Assembly (NCBI GenBank): GCA_022703505.1
Contig: JAKLDN010000001.1
Coordinates: 531,389-595,388, forward strand
Length of the DNA: 64,000 bases
Direction of reading: 5' to 3'
Source of the DNA: Spirochaetota bacterium
GTDB lineage: Bacteria; Spirochaetota; Spirochaetia; Treponematales; UBA12059
In this document: positions 33,839 through 56,808 of the stretch, piece by piece
Position numbering within the stretch: position 1 is the first letter of the stretch
Layout: the number at the start of each line of letters is the position of its first letter
Notes under the pieces: model-generated
What the model saw: the letters and a program-made list of their open reading frames with translations, nothing else
The model's database searches: none
What the model was told of the DNA's origin: nothing
Position numbers and translations under genes: made by a program

Positions 33839-34325
33839 GGCGGGCTTTCACCAATGAGAGCTCTGTCCCCGGGGGATCCCGCCGGCCCGTCCGTCTATGC
33901 CACAATCCTCCGTACTCCCATTCCCAGACCTGGTCGACCTGCTTTGCCTCGACGGGATTCCGGTCGATGTACTCGAAGACCATCAAGAATTGCGCGAAGG
34001 TACGGATGATCCGCGAGAAAAACCTTTCTCCCCAGACATGGCCGACGTACCCATGGATACGATTATAGGCCATGGCGAACACACTCAGGATCCACTGCAT
34101 AATGCGGGAGAGGGATTCCCTGCGGCCCGGGCGGATCATGAGGTGGAAGTGATTCCCCATAAGGGCAAAATTCTCGATCCGGAAGTCGTACCGTTTCCGA
34201 GCCCGGGCAACGACCTGAAGGAAGAGATCCTTCATGCCCCGGTTGTCCAGGATCATCTCTTTCCGGTTCGCCCGGGCAGTGACGTGGTAGAGACCGCCGT
34301 CATGAAGTTCCCTTGGTTTACGCAT
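33813..34325 (-). CDS. REP-associated tyrosine transposase (RayT, Y1/HUH)
   Basis: Predicted 170-residue single-strand DNA transposase of the IS200-like Y1 family. The start MRKPRELHDGGLYHVTARANRKE, the HUH motif NHFHLM (His59, His61) and EYIDRNPVEAKQV with Tyr119 match RayT proteins, which are tied to REP palindromes rather than to classical IS ends. The frame is open 31 codons upstream, but homology starts at the ATG at 34325. REP-like AGCTCTGTCCCC sequences flank it on both sides and one forms part of its own C-terminal coding (PPGTELSLV). Confidence 0.9.
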   Translation of the reverse strand: MRKPRELHDGGLYHVTARANRKEMILDNRGMKDLFLQVVARARKRYDFRIENFALMGNHFHLMIRPGRRESLSRIMQWILSVFAMAYNRIHGYVGHVWGERFFSRIIRTFAQFLMVFEYIDRNPVEAKQVDQVWEWEYGGLWHRRTGRRDPPGTELSLVKARLDSPRPVP

Positions 34326-40840: not shown

Positions 40841-42298
40841 CTATTTCCCCACGCAGAAACGCGAGAAGATCATTTCCAGCACCGATTCCGGCACGGACTC
40901 GCCGGTGAGCTCCGCCAGGGCGTCCGCGGCTTCCCGGAGGTCCACCGCGGCGGCGTCCAGGTGGGCTCCCGCGGCCAGGGCGGCCCCCGCGGCGGCCAGG
41001 GCCCGGGCGGCGCGGCGGGCGCAGTCGGCCTGGCGCCTGCTCGCCAATCTCGGGGCGGTATGCGGAAGGGGCCGCCCCGAGATTGGCGGCGACGAAGCCC
41101 GTTGGGCTTCGTCGAGGTCTCCGGATGCCCCGCGGTCGAGCTCTGTCCCCCGCGCGTTGCCGGACAACGCCCCGCCCCGCAGACGCGCGCCCAGCTCGGC
41201 CGCCAGGGCCGGGAAGCCCTCCCCCGTGGCCGCGGACAGGGGGATCCAGCCCTCCGGGGCGGGCAGGGCCTCGGGCAGGTCGACCTTGTTCCAGACCCGG
41301 ACAGCCCCGGGCAGGGAACCCAAGGTGTCCAGGTCCCCGGGCCCGGCGCCCCGGGTGCCGTCCACCAGGTAGACCACCAGGTCCGCCCCCTCGGCCAGGA
41401 GGCGGGAACGTCGTACCCCTTCGGCCTCCACCGGGTCCGGGGCTTCCCGGAGGCCCGCGGTGTCGAAGAGGGCCACCGGAATCCCGTCCAGGTCCAGGTC
41501 CGCCTCGATGTAGTCCCGGGTGGTACCGTGGGACTCGGAGACGATGGAACGTTCTTCCTTTAAAAACAGGTTGAAGAGCCGGGACTTTCCGGCGTTCGTG
41601 GGGCCCGCCAGGGCCACCCGGGCGCCCTCGGCCAGGAGGCGGCCCACCGCATGGCTCGCGGCCAGGGCCTCCGCCCGGGATCGTGCGGCCCGGACCGCCG
41701 CGAGGAGGTCATCCGGGCCGTCCGCCAGCTCGTCCTCCCCGTAGTCCAGGCGCGCCTCGGCTTCCGTCAAGGCCGCGAGGACCGCGTCCCGAAGATCCGA
41801 AACCTCCCGCCCCAGGCCGCCGGAGAGGCGTTCCAGGGCTTCCTGCCGGGCTTCCCCGGTCCGGGCCCGGACGAGCTCGTCCACGGCCTCCGCGGCGGCC
41901 AGGTCCATCTTCCCGGCGGCGAAGGCCCGGAAGGTGAACTCCCCCGGCAGGGCCCGCTCGAACCCGGCCTTCTCCAGGGCGGTCAGGACCCCCTCCCAGG
42001 CCGCGGGTCCGCCGTGGCAGACGAAGTCCACCGCGTCCTGTCCCGTGTATCCCGAGGGAGCCCGGAAGACCAGGGCGACGACCTCGTCCGCGTTCCTGCC
42101 CGTCTCGGGATCCCGCACGAAACCGTGCACGGCCCGATGGGTTTCCGCCCGGGAAAGCGCTTCGGGCCGGGAGAAGGCCTTGGCCGCGAGCTCCGGGGCC
42201 CCGGGACCCGAGGTGCGCACCACAGCCAGGGCGGCGGGGACGGGGGCCGTGGCCAGGGCGGCTATGGGGACGTCGAGGCGGAGGTATCCGGAGGGCAT
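40841..42298 (-). CDS. mnmE: tRNA modification GTPase MnmE with in-frame repeat insertion
   Basis: Predicted 485-residue GTPase partner of MnmG. The N-terminal tetrahydrofolate-binding domain starts IAALATAPVPAALAVVRTSG; the G domain has GPTNAGKSRLFN (P-loop), GTTRDYIEA and DTAGLREAPDPVEAEG; the C-terminus FSRFCVGK carries the essential Cys. The ATG at 42298 is the homology start; the frame continues upstream without homology. Between the G domain and the C-terminal helices about 36 residues (SGNARGTELDRG ... GRPLPHT) come from an insertion of REP-like hairpins at 41042-41154. The insertion is in frame and stop-free. Confidence 0.93.
   Translation of the reverse strand: MPSGYLRLDVPIAALATAPVPAALAVVRTSGPGAPELAAKAFSRPEALSRAETHRAVHGFVRDPETGRNADEVVALVFRAPSGYTGQDAVDFVCHGGPAAWEGVLTALEKAGFERALPGEFTFRAFAAGKMDLAAAEAVDELVRARTGEARQEALERLSGGLGREVSDLRDAVLAALTEAEARLDYGEDELADGPDDLLAAVRAARSRAEALAASHAVGRLLAEGARVALAGPTNAGKSRLFNLFLKEERSIVSESHGTTRDYIEADLDLDGIPVALFDTAGLREAPDPVEAEGVRRSRLLAEGADLVVYLVDGTRGAGPGDLDTLGSLPGAVRVWNKVDLPEALPAPEGWIPLSAATGEGFPALAAELGARLRGGALSGNARGTELDRGASGDLDEAQRASSPPISGRPLPHTAPRLASRRQADCARRAARALAAAGAALAAGAHLDAAAVDLREAADALAELTGESVPESVLEMIFSRFCVGK
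41042..41154. repeat. REP/BIME-like hairpins inside mnmE
   Basis: CGCCAATCTCGGGGCGG (41042-41058) pairs perfectly with 41072-41088 (17 bp); CGACGAAGCCC (41090-41100) pairs perfectly with GGGCTTCGTCG (41104-41114); then GAGCTCTGTCCCC at 41138-41150, the RayT-associated core. Confidence 0.85.
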
Positions 42299-42392
42299 GG
42301 GGTACGATAGCCGTCCCCGGCGCGCCTTGACAAGGCCCGGCAAATCTTCCACCCTTTGTATATCCTTGGCGGAGACCTCGACGGAAACCGCA

Positions 42393-42427
42393 GGGATTCG
42401 TCGCCGCGAGTCGCGGAGCGACTCGCG
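42393..42427. repeat. REP-like hairpin between mnmE and the barrel gene
   Basis: GGGATTCGTCGCC is followed by CGCGAGTCG-CGGAG-CGACTCGCG (9-bp stem, 42405-42427). The same sequence family with minor changes lies at 52091-52125. Confidence 0.75.
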
Positions 42428-45173: not shown

Positions 45174-45213
45174 TAAAAAAACGGATGGACAGGATCGAAT
45201 CCTGTCCATCCGT
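45174..45213 (-). terminator. Rho-independent terminator of the LPP20-like lipoprotein gene
   Basis: On the minus strand ACGGATGGACAGGA pairs with TCCTGTCCATCCGT across a 5-nt loop and is followed by TTTTTTT. On the plus strand it has no T-run, so it serves the minus-strand gene. Confidence 0.85.
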
Positions 45214-45247
45214 TCTACATCCCTACCTTGTCTTGTACTGTATCAGC

Positions 45248-50909: not shown

Positions 50910-52124
50910 CTAGAAGATCACGCGTCCCCGGCCCTCCCCGATCTCCACGGTCGTGCCCAGGAGTCGCGAGGTGTCCCGGAGCCCCGCCAGGATGCGGCCC
51001 GCCTCCTCGGGGGCGGCGGGGCGGGGGGCGTAGTCCCGGCGCTCGATCCGCAGGGGAAGCACCTCGGCGGCCAGGATCCGGCCTTCCGCCAGGGTGATCC
51101 GGAGGGCCGCGGTATCGTAGGTGGGATCCGCGGCCATGTCGAAGACGAAGTTGCCCAGGGAGTAGACGATGAGGCCCTCCCGGTACCGTTCCAGGGACTG
51201 CAGGACGTGGGGGTGGTGCCCCAGGACCAGGTCCGCCCCGGCGTCGATCGCCGCACGGCCGAAGTCCCGCTGGGCCTGCCGGGGATGCCGCTCGTGCTCC
51301 TCGCCCCAATGGACGGACACGACGATGTAGTCCGGCCGCGCGGTCTTCCGCAGGGATCCGATGTCCGCGGCCAACCGGGCGGGGTCCGCGAGGGCCACCC
51401 CGGGGCGCCCGGAGGCGGCGGGCAGGACGCTCCAGATGCCCTCCGCGTAGGCCAGGAAGCCCACCCGGGCGCCCCGGGCCTCCAGGACCGCGGGGGCCCG
51501 GGCGGAGGCCTCGTCGATCCCGGCCCCGGTCCGGGCGATTCCCAGCAGGTCCAGGTAGTCCAGGGTCTCCCGGATCGCCGCGGGGCCGTAGTCGTTCATG
51601 TGGTTGTTGGCCAGGGAGACCACGTCGAAGCCCGCCCATTTGAGCCCGAACAGCGCGCCGGGAGGAGCCCGGAAGGTGACCTCCGCTGGCTTCCCCGGAT
51701 AGGGGGAGCCCGTGAAGGAGGCCGGGTTCTCCAGGTTGCAGAAGGCGATGTCCGCGGAGGACACGAGGTCCCGGACATGGCGGAAGGGCCAGCGGTACCC
51801 GTTCCGGTCGATCATGTCCGCGACCGTGCGGGACAGGAGCACGTCCCCGCAGGCCAGGAGGGTGACGGGACCCGGGGATCTCGCGCCTTCCAGGGAGAGG
51901 GGTACGGAGACCGTCTCCCCCGGGGCGGAGGTCTCGGGAGATCCGGCGCCGGGGAACCGGGGCTGGCAGGCCGCAAGGAGAAGGGTCGGAACGAGGCCCG
52001 CAAGGACGATCGACGCGGCGGCGGCCCGTCCCGCCCGGGCAAAGGCTCGGATCGCGGGAAACCGTCGCGGCAACCTCGACGAAGCCCGCAGGGCTTCGTT
52101 GCCGTGAGTCGCTCCGCGACTCAC
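50910..52124 (-). CDS. CapA-like metallophosphatase-fold lipoprotein
   Basis: Predicted 404-residue CapA/PGA_cap family protein. VTLLACGDVLLSRTVADMI, NLENPA, VVSLANNHMNDYG and VSVHWGEEHERHP with LGHHPHVLQS carry the metal-binding Asp, Asn and His residues of the calcineurin-like fold. A hydrophobic segment ending LLLAAC (Cys51 from the GTG start) is a lipobox. The GTG at 52124 overlaps the nadE stop (GTGA), giving an unusually long N-region; a TTG at 52073 would give a normal signal peptide. The first codons come from a REP-like hairpin. Homologues act in poly-gamma-glutamate or exopolysaccharide metabolism; function here unproven. Confidence 0.82.
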   Translation of the reverse strand: MSRGATHGNEALRASSRLPRRFPAIRAFARAGRAAAASIVLAGLVPTLLLAACQPRFPGAGSPETSAPGETVSVPLSLEGARSPGPVTLLACGDVLLSRTVADMIDRNGYRWPFRHVRDLVSSADIAFCNLENPASFTGSPYPGKPAEVTFRAPPGALFGLKWAGFDVVSLANNHMNDYGPAAIRETLDYLDLLGIARTGAGIDEASARAPAVLEARGARVGFLAYAEGIWSVLPAASGRPGVALADPARLAADIGSLRKTARPDYIVVSVHWGEEHERHPRQAQRDFGRAAIDAGADLVLGHHPHVLQSLERYREGLIVYSLGNFVFDMAADPTYDTAALRITLAEGRILAAEVLPLRIERRDYAPRPAAPEEAGRILAGLRDTSRLLGTTVEIGEGRGRVIF

Positions 52125-52125
52125 G
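52077..52125. repeat. REP-like hairpin pair at the nadE/capA junction
   Basis: CGACGAAGCCC-GCA-GGGCTTCGTTG (52077-52101) and CGTGAGTCG-CTCCG-CGACTCACG (52103-52125). The second hairpin contains both the nadE stop TGA and the capA-like GTG start. Confidence 0.85.
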
Positions 52126-53788
52126 CGTCCGTCTCGTGCAGGACCCGGGCTATGGGAATGCGGCGGCCCATGCCGAAGGCCCGGGGGGACACCTTGAGGA
52201 CCGGGGCGGCCTGGCGGCGCTTGTACTCCGCCCGGCCGACCATCTGGAGGACCCGCCGTACCAGGGCGGGATCGTGGCCCCGGTCCACGATCTCGGGTCC
52301 CGAGAGGTTCCGGACGATGTAGAGCTCCAGGATGGCATCCAGGACCTCGTAGGGGGGCAGGGAGTCCTGGTCCGTCTGGCCGGGGCGGAGCTCCGCGCTG
52401 GGGGGCTTGGTCAGGGTGGCCTCCGGGATCGGGGGGGTACGGCCTTCCGAGCGCCGGCGCTCGTTCACCGCCCGGGAGAGGGCGTAGACCTCGGTCTTCA
52501 GGAGGTCCCCGATGGGCGCCAGGGCCCCGCACATGTCCCCGTAGAGGGTGCAGTAGCCGCAGGCGAGCTCGCTCTTGTTGCCCGTGGTCAAGAGGAGGGA
52601 ACCGAACTTGTTGGACCAGGTCATGAGCAGGGCTCCCCGGATGCGGGCCTGGAGGTTCTCCTCCGCCAGGCCGAAGGGAAGGCCCCGGAAGTGGAGCTCG
52701 AACAGGTCTAGGTAGGCGGAGAAGGGCCCCTCGATGGGCAGGACCTCCATCCGTGCCCCCAAGGCCTGGGCCAGGTACCGGGAATCGGAGATCGACCCCT
52801 CCGAGGAGAACCGGGAGGGCATGCCCAGGAGGGTCAGGTTCTCCGCCCCGACCGCCTGGGCGGCCAGCACCGCCACGATGGCGGAATCGATGCCCCCGGA
52901 GATCCCGACCAGGGCCTTTTTAAAGCCGCACTTGCCCATGTAGCCCCGGATGCCGGAGACCAGGGCCCGCTCGGTCTCGTCCCACCGGTCCGCGGGGTCC
53001 CGGGCGGACGTCCCGACGGCCCCGGTGTCCACGAAGGTCAGCCCCTCCTCCCAGCCCGCCTGGAGGACGAGGTTCCCCCGGGGATCCAGGGCGAAGGAGC
53101 GGCCGTCGAAGACCAGGGAGTCCGTGGCGCCGACCAGGTTGCAGTAGAGGACCGGGGCGGAAGCCTCCCGGGCCAGGTTGGAGGCCAGGCGGAGGCGGGT
53201 CTCCTGCTTGCCCGCGTGGAAGGGCGAGGCGGAGGGCACCACGACCAGGTCCGGGCCGAGGTCCAGGAGGTCCCGGACGGGATCCACCGGGTATCGGCTG
53301 CCGGGCACCGCGGGCTCCTCCCACCAGATGTCCTCGCAGATGGCGAATCCGATCCGCAGACCGCCCAGTTCGAGGATCCGACGCTCCCGGGCGGGCTCGA
53401 AGTAGCGGGCCTCGTCGAAGACGTCGTAGGTGGGAAGGAGGGTCTTTTCCTGGGTGAAGACGATCCGGCCGTCCCGGATCACCGCGACCGCGTTTACCAG
53501 GGGCTTGCCGGAACCCGAGCGGTTGCGGTCCACGTAACCGACGGCCACGGCCGGGCCGCCGGGCAGGTCCTTCTGCAGGGCCCGGAGGGCGGCCAGGCTG
53601 CCCTCCGCGAAGGATTCCTGGTCCAGGAGGTCCATGGGGGGGTACCCGCAGAGGGCCGTTTCGGGGAAGACGACGAGGGAGACCCGGGGCTCCCTCTCCA
53701 GGGCTTCCCGGGCCAGCCGGGCGATACGGGCGCGGTTTCCGGCGAAGTCTCCGACGACCGCGTCTATCTGAGCCAGGGCGACGATCAC
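52121..53788 (-). CDS. nadE: Glutamine-dependent NAD+ synthetase
   Basis: Predicted 555-residue NadE with both domains. The N-terminal nitrilase-type glutaminase has the triad Glu43 (FPETALCGYP), Lys115 (QEKTLLPTYD) and Cys151 (AICEDIWWEEP). The synthetase domain has GISGGIDSA at 295-303, LLTTGNKSELACGYCTLYGDM and KVSPRAFGMGRRIPIA. It amidates nicotinate adenine dinucleotide. GTG at 53788 has GAGGAGG; a longer frame would reach 53825 but lacks a ribosome-binding site. The stop codon is inside a REP-like hairpin. Confidence 0.95.
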   Translation of the reverse strand: MIVALAQIDAVVGDFAGNRARIARLAREALEREPRVSLVVFPETALCGYPPMDLLDQESFAEGSLAALRALQKDLPGGPAVAVGYVDRNRSGSGKPLVNAVAVIRDGRIVFTQEKTLLPTYDVFDEARYFEPARERRILELGGLRIGFAICEDIWWEEPAVPGSRYPVDPVRDLLDLGPDLVVVPSASPFHAGKQETRLRLASNLAREASAPVLYCNLVGATDSLVFDGRSFALDPRGNLVLQAGWEEGLTFVDTGAVGTSARDPADRWDETERALVSGIRGYMGKCGFKKALVGISGGIDSAIVAVLAAQAVGAENLTLLGMPSRFSSEGSISDSRYLAQALGARMEVLPIEGPFSAYLDLFELHFRGLPFGLAEENLQARIRGALLMTWSNKFGSLLLTTGNKSELACGYCTLYGDMCGALAPIGDLLKTEVYALSRAVNERRRSEGRTPPIPEATLTKPPSAELRPGQTDQDSLPPYEVLDAILELYIVRNLSGPEIVDRGHDPALVRRVLQMVGRAEYKRRQAAPVLKVSPRAFGMGRRIPIARVLHETDA

Positions 53789-53803
53789 GGGAGCCTCCTC
53801 GCC

Positions 53804-53832
53804 TTGCGGAGCGACGGTCGCCATAGTACACT
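53804..53832 (+). promoter_or_regulatory. Promoter of the SDR-like gene, leaderless geometry
   Basis: TTGCGG at 53804-53809, 17-nt spacer, TACACT at 53827-53832, six bases, then GTG at 53839. Confidence 0.55.
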
Positions 53833-56657: not shown

Positions 56658-56808
56658 GGCTAGGAGTTTGTCGGGCTTGCACACCTTAATAATAGAAAAA
56701 TCGCATTCATGCGATTTTTCTACTTTTCAAACTCCAAAGGAGCCGGATAATCGGGATTTTTAGCGCCTATCGACGCTAAAAATCCACAAGTCCGACAGGC
56801 TCCTAGCC
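56658..56808. mobile_element. MITE-like element, 151 bp
   Basis: Imperfect terminal inverted repeats of 21 bp: left GGCTAGGAGTTTGTCGGG (from 56658), right (reverse) GGCTAGGAGCCTGTCGGA (56808-56791), three mismatches over 21. Inside are two perfect hairpins: AGAAAAATCGCAT with ATGCGATTTTTCT (56694-56721) and GATTTTTAGCG with CGCTAAAAATC (56755-56784). It is much more AT-rich than the flanks. No coding capacity. The lgt stop codon (56803-56805) lies in its right terminus. The first hairpin may terminate transcription in both directions. Confidence 0.8.

Follow-up and report, generated by a model that had tools for sequence, protein, structure and literature searches.

The nadE gene and a CapA-like gene of a Spirochaetota bacterium (contig JAKLDN010000001.1) end and begin inside a single hairpin, which raises the question of what the palindrome has done to the two genes. 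The preliminary description of this DNA had the element supply the stop of one and the start of the other, fusing them into a coupled pair. We analysed this locus within the window (the whole stretch of 64,000 nucleotides) and compared it with the same site in relatives free of the element, which tell what preceded the repeat at the junction. Here, we report that a two-hairpin repeat probably entered an already overlapping nadE–capA junction in the ancestor of the genus, replaced the junction letters and extended the leader of the CapA-like protein.

Sequence and layout of the junction

On the minus strand, nadE (52121..53815, 5′ coordinate approximate; matches to PF00795 and PF02540) ends in GAC GCG TGA, and the CapA-like frame opens GTG AGT CGC. 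The two genes share GTGA (52121..52124, minus strand), with the nadE stop TGA at 52121-52123 and the start GTG at 52122-52124. The CapA-like frame (50910..52124, minus strand) encodes a lipoprotein with a PGA_cap domain (PF09587, residues 88-329, 5.3e-77), and its first codons read, on the minus strand, GTG AGT CGC GGA GCG ACT CAC GGC AAC GAA GCC CTG CGG GCT TCG TCG AGG TTG.

The first hairpin (HPvar; 52103..52125, minus strand) is CGTGAGTCGC-GGA-GCGACTCACG, with 10-bp arms at 52103-52112 and 52116-52125, a loop at 52113-52115 and GTGA inside the outer arm. The preliminary description had rightly seen the hairpin and the GTGA in which nadE ends and the CapA-like frame begins; its 9 bp and 5-nt loop give way to 10-bp arms and a 3-nt loop. 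The second hairpin (HP2; 52079..52099, minus strand) is ACGAAGCCC-TGC-GGGCTTCGT, has 9 bp and forms the repeated core of the family. Beyond it lies the right tail of the repeat (52068..52078, minus strand; CGAGGTTGCCG), and both HP2 and the tail are read in the CapA frame, in agreement with the earlier remark that an adjacent hairpin encodes the next residues.

Shuffled sequences gave an expectation of 0.00 matches to the 21-nt first hairpin at three or fewer mismatches and of 0.13 matches to the second. These figures, together with further copies of both hairpins elsewhere in the genome and their presence at this junction in two sister species (G001, uncultured Spirochaetes bacterium SRR6284162_bin.1; G002, Treponema sp. 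AS27yjCOA_177), show that the hairpins are not products of chance. Both are present in the minimum-energy RNA fold, and the stability of the whole junction stretch is only mildly above that of shuffled sequences (z, −1.70; 12 of 200 shuffles equally stable). An Rfam search of 51900-52300 returned no match. No U-tract is found at the junction, where GCAAC comes after HPvar and CGAGG after HP2, and neither hairpin thus has the form of a Rho-independent terminator.

The two-hairpin repeat family

The nadE–capA feature is one copy of a family whose members are laid out in one direction as a first hairpin of variable sequence, GGCRAC, a second hairpin, TCGA and a weak tail near GTTTCCCGRA. The exact 19-mer of HP2 occurs 8 times in the source genome, and the pattern GAAGCCC N3-5 GGGCTTC is found there at 32 places. 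A looser core (TCGRYGAAGC...GCTTCRNYGCC) has 34 matches in the source spirochaete MAG and 20 and 14 in the two same-genus species, with 0 matches for the reversed-pattern control; with copies in these numbers, and with some that are present in one species and absent from the same site in a sister, the family is a dispersed palindromic repeat. Six of the 23 family genomes carry the core, namely three of the same genus and three of genus g9. HP2 is flanked by GGCRAC and TCGA in the oriented copies (67 rows, in which the search pattern itself fixes most letters), and a few other copies (L015, L152) have A/T tracts after the hairpin. The literature searched gave no published description of the two-hairpin family.

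Within the window, another copy lies at 41042..41114 (plus strand; 17-bp first hairpin at 41042-41088, HP2 at 41090-41114), and a decayed one lies at 42375..42427 (minus strand, lower bound approximate), which reads CGCGAGTCGC-TCC-GCGACTCGCG and continues into a degenerate HP2 and tail. The stem of the decayed copy (42405-42427), 10 kb from the nadE stem, differs from it by one compensated pair and an inverted loop.

A reading in terms of local hairpin clusters was rejected: the window has only four perfect stems of at least 11 bp with loops of 2-8 nt (mean of ten first-order Markov sequences, 0.4). Hairpins with perfect stems of 16 bp and 14 bp, both unrelated to the repeat core, stand at 45180-45214 and 56693-56722 of the window. 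Many copies share a recurring ACCACRGAGNNCACRGAG stretch just ahead of the first hairpin (e.g., L012, L027, L128, L137 and L154).

Repeats at gene ends

Same sites were looked up with 31 flanks chosen from 72 copies, the others being compared only where fetched loci overlapped. At a SpoIIE-domain gene (source contig C9, about 70.2 kb; locus L150, 1440-1530), the source has ATCGAGAGCCTATGATCGGCT-TT-AGCCGATCATAGGCTCTCG, followed by GCAAC and the second hairpin, and the same site in G001 and G002 (L181 and L178) reads ATCGAGAGCCTGTAATCCG and ATCGAAAGCCTGTGAATGG, with neither the inverted copy nor the second hairpin. The insertion is species-specific and consists of a 19-bp inverted copy of the 3′ end of the gene beside the repeat module; the contrast of filled and empty sites indicates that the two arrived together, or nearly so, in one lineage. 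A FabG-like gene has different codons and stops in two species (CTT GCG ATG TAG and TTG GCG ATG TGA), each with a perfect inverted arm. At the 3′ end of RNase Y (L191, L186; L030), the last codons of the sisters lie in a hairpin of 16-18 bp with a different second hairpin, and the source genome seems to have lost its hairpin there by deletion between direct repeats.

We tentatively propose, while giving it less than an even chance, that a mobile module GGCRAC-hairpin-TCGA inserts by gene ends through a fold-back that copies the last codons and stop into the inverted arm, the stems later being rewritten arm from arm. If this is true, each insertion makes a new gene-specific hairpin, and the target writes half of the element; we found no description of target-copied arms in bacterial repeats in the open-licence literature searched. 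The wider rule that all first arms are inverted gene-end copies was rejected, because many first-hairpin stems share a CGYGAG start, the stems at L038 and L149 stand exactly after the stop with unrelated sequence in the sister, the hairpin at L139 apparently supplied a new end for its gene instead of being copied from one, and a stem related to that of nadE lies at 42405.

Stems of the GGGGTGTCCAAT or GCTGTCCAAAA type also occur in other hairpins at gene ends (L139, about 935-985; L176; L203; L185). That of L139 seems to be the source of a new C-terminus and stop for a Vut_1 transporter.

Origin of the junction letters

At the nadE–capA site, the element is present in all three same-genus species, and the longest invariant run of their alignment (41 nt; next longest, 17) falls inside it. 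The repeat core is absent from the nadE junction in all loci outside the genus (73 loci looked at, including that of the window, with some genomes represented twice). Only three species carry the element here, and its entry before the genus split would be a single event.

The end of nadE differs between these groups. Outside the genus, nadE continues for four residues beyond the conserved [HYCS]E in 10 of 11 family loci, with Arg last in nine of those ten, and for three residues in L050. In the genus itself, three residues follow and end in Ala in every species (3/3); nadE is thus shorter than in relatives by one residue and does not end in their Arg. This shortening and the near-identical stem at 42405-42427 favour an arm borne by the element. 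Of the earlier claim that the element supplies the stop and start, the location inside the repeat stands, and the letters themselves, CGTGAG, probably came with the element, replacing those of the junction, rather than being native.

One alternative restricts the insertion to the 3′ arm, HP2 and tail: the 5′ arm would then be native, made up of the nadE end and the capA start, and the 3′ arm would have arisen as a fold-back copy of that native sequence. GTGAGYCGC does resemble the native capA starts of g9 relatives (ATGAGGCGC and ATGAGCCGG), which speaks for a native arm. The SpoIIE-domain site offers a precedent, with a 19-bp perfect hairpin on the gene end (IESL stop) plus HP2 in the source and with both sisters keeping the coding arm without the copy and HP2, and the FabG-like and RNase Y ends are of the same design. 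However, nadE has lost its terminal Arg and one codon, and the stem is common to the unrelated site at 42405-42427; we regard a native arm as somewhat unlikely, and an arm brought by the repeat as the better account of the junction.

Changes in the stems

Filled and empty sites in close relatives provide a comparative-genomic test of how perfect gene-end hairpins arise and persist, and they address the question of RNA selection versus DNA-level copying at bacterial gene ends. Among 21 same-site groups (29 comparisons, which are non-independent and use stems picked by best pairing), 348 stem pairs were the same, 39 were double-changed and still paired, 1 was single-changed and paired, and 9 were broken. 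At the nadE–capA site, the first loop is GGA in the source and GGG in G001, and G002 has TCC, which is GGA exactly inverted. The G001 stem has one uncompensated C/A mismatch there and the three species show no compensatory pair change, so pairing has not been strictly kept at this site.

Template switching makes and repairs stems of this kind, leaving as its marks perfect stems formed in one event, multiple compensatory changes and inverted loops, as reported in PMC8794818. The filled and empty sites at L150, the 39 double changes and the GGA/TCC loop of nadE–capA correspond to these marks, and the inverted loop, typical of the process, is the one seen at our site. We propose template switching for the family, whose first hairpins appear to originate, and to be maintained, at the level of DNA.

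An alternative that is compatible with our account of the junction is that an RNA function maintains the hairpins (pausing of ribosomes at the stop, protection of the mRNA 3′ end, or termination), with the compensatory changes resulting from selection for RNA pairing. Among the 33 source-genome copies with a first hairpin, a coding frame points at the element from the HPvar side in 21 and in the reverse sense in 2, as such a function would have it. In 8 of these copies, the stop falls exactly at the first base of the hairpin; 2 have it 1-3 bases earlier, and another 6 have it within the arm. Frames were called by a simple codon-usage score that missed at least one (L003, where the frame likewise ends GCG TGA in the arm). 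Escherichia coli REPs within 15 nt of a stop are, as reported in PMC12306157, able to stall ribosomes. On the other side, G-U pairs are rare in the repeat (5 of 924 pairs in 73 stems, against 9 mismatches; in the control of 19 U-tract hairpins from the same loci, 7 of 215), unlike the expectation for RNA-selected stems, and the nadE–capA element has no U-tract and lies inside a coding region. Selection on RNA is therefore, in our judgement, an unlikely cause of these hairpins, and copying at the DNA level is preferred.

Leader of the CapA-like protein

The extended leader of the CapA-like lipoprotein (51966..52124, minus strand) places the lipobox Cys at codon 53, with about 18-21 codons encoded by the element. 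The three same-genus species have this Cys at residue 53, 62 and 53. In element-free relatives, it is at residue 22 in three g9 loci and at 18-19 in three g5 loci (L054, L055 and L057); L052, missed by the automatic lipobox search, has it at 24 by eye, and the other loci gave no usable value. The signal peptide has thus been lengthened, as the preliminary description had supposed, with about 30-40 more residues before the Cys than in those relatives. The element accounts for roughly 18-21 of the additional codons. The CapA frame runs through the element in all three species, and the difference in leader length between them is a multiple of three.

These data also bear on the start codon. CapA could begin at an alternative TTG within the tail (52071..52073, minus strand) or at another downstream codon, the hairpins then being merely 3′ sequence of nadE, and from that TTG the leader would be 36 residues, closer to that of the relatives. 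The idea that this TTG would bypass the element holds for two of the three species and fails in G001, which reads TTT at the position and where the GTG of the hairpin is the only ATG, GTG or TTG ahead of the lipobox Cys. With the frame also kept through the element in three species, a downstream start is doubtful indeed, and the GTG in the hairpin is preferred.

Age of the overlap

The nadE–capA junction has the NTGA form of a four-base overlapping pair, and so do 13 of 15 loci outside the genus (ATG in 8, GTG in 4 and TTG in 1), with a frame open for at least 70 codons; the two exceptions are L050, where the frame closes early, and L086, which has CTG. Since these 13 loci are free of the element, the repeat did not create the coupled pair, and comparison of the sequences makes it most likely that the four-base overlap, and any coupling from it, is older than the element. 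The view that the pair owes its origin to the palindrome, through the stop and start that it supplied, can draw on the GTGA in the arm, on a nadE stop shifted one codon relative to most relatives and on published REP termini that do give stop codons (PMC3733652), but it is highly improbable beside 13 of 15 other loci that overlap by four bases with an open frame and no element at the junction. The check suggested with the original claim, a comparison of the nadE C-terminus and junction with those of element-free relatives, thus found the overlap present, which refutes the claim as far as the junction is concerned, and the C-terminus similar, not the same.

We suggest the following course of events. 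Beforehand, nadE and capA would have shared the four-base overlap still seen in relatives. The repeat (variable first hairpin, GGCAAC, conserved hairpin, TCGA and weak tail) would have entered this junction in the genus ancestor and swapped the junction letters for its own CGTGAG, so that nadE would have come to stop, and capA to start at its GTG, within the hairpin arm. What remained of the element would be read in frame as an extended n-region of the lipoprotein signal peptide. Translation of capA may proceed by termination-reinitiation, nadE ribosomes opening a hairpin that would otherwise cover the GTG, in a fold that is only mildly better than those of shuffles. DNA template switching probably gave rise to the stems of the family and maintains their perfect pairing. 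The locus is a clear case of a palindromic repeat that has taken over a stop/start overlap and, in three species, become a fixed part of a signal peptide.

Comparison with known systems

Rickettsia palindromic elements are palindromes read in frame inside a protein, and by that description the nadE–capA copy is like them. It differs in lying at an overlapping stop and start and in a spirochaete signal peptide.

As short palindromic repeats at gene ends, the family resembles the GTAG- and CGTC-tagged REPs and BIMEs, from which it differs in its low copy number and in a first hairpin without fixed sequence. REP termini often give a TAG stop to flanking ORFs, and some REPs lie inside ORFs, according to PMC3733652. 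The spirochaete repeat has no unpaired GTAG tag, HP2 being flanked by GGCRAC and TCGA, and so falls outside the GTAG superfamily. The CGTC superfamily, among which two Rickettsia palindromic elements have been placed, is described in PMC3733652 by a CGTC tag, a stem of 8-9 bp with AT in the first and second pair, a 4-5-nt loop and a CCA tail; HP2, with outer pairs A-T then C-G, a 3-nt loop and no CCA tail, does not belong to it.

The repeat core is absent within about 1.5 kb on each side of the five Y1_Tnp (PF01797) genes of the genome, and a RAYT-driven REP was rejected, as none of the five adjoins a copy. No mover is assigned to the repeat because no Y1_Tnp gene stands beside any copy. One of the five lies in the window (33960-34289, minus strand), with no repeat copy adjoining.

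Double-hairpin mobile elements of mitochondrial DNA (PMC2800124) are, as described there, also tandem hairpin pairs that are repeated and sometimes inside genes, with the difference that they are organellar. Four-base overlapping pairs with termination-reinitiation, as presented in PMC6728339, share with nadE–capA the NTGA overlap, seen in the genus and in its relatives; here, a repeat-borne hairpin encloses the overlap. Perfect stems made in one event, compensatory changes and inverted loops, all of which are seen in the spirochaete family, likewise mark the template-switch hairpins reported in PMC8794818. Those were described from RNA genes, whereas the spirochaete hairpins stand at the 3′ ends of genes and are joined to a repeated module.
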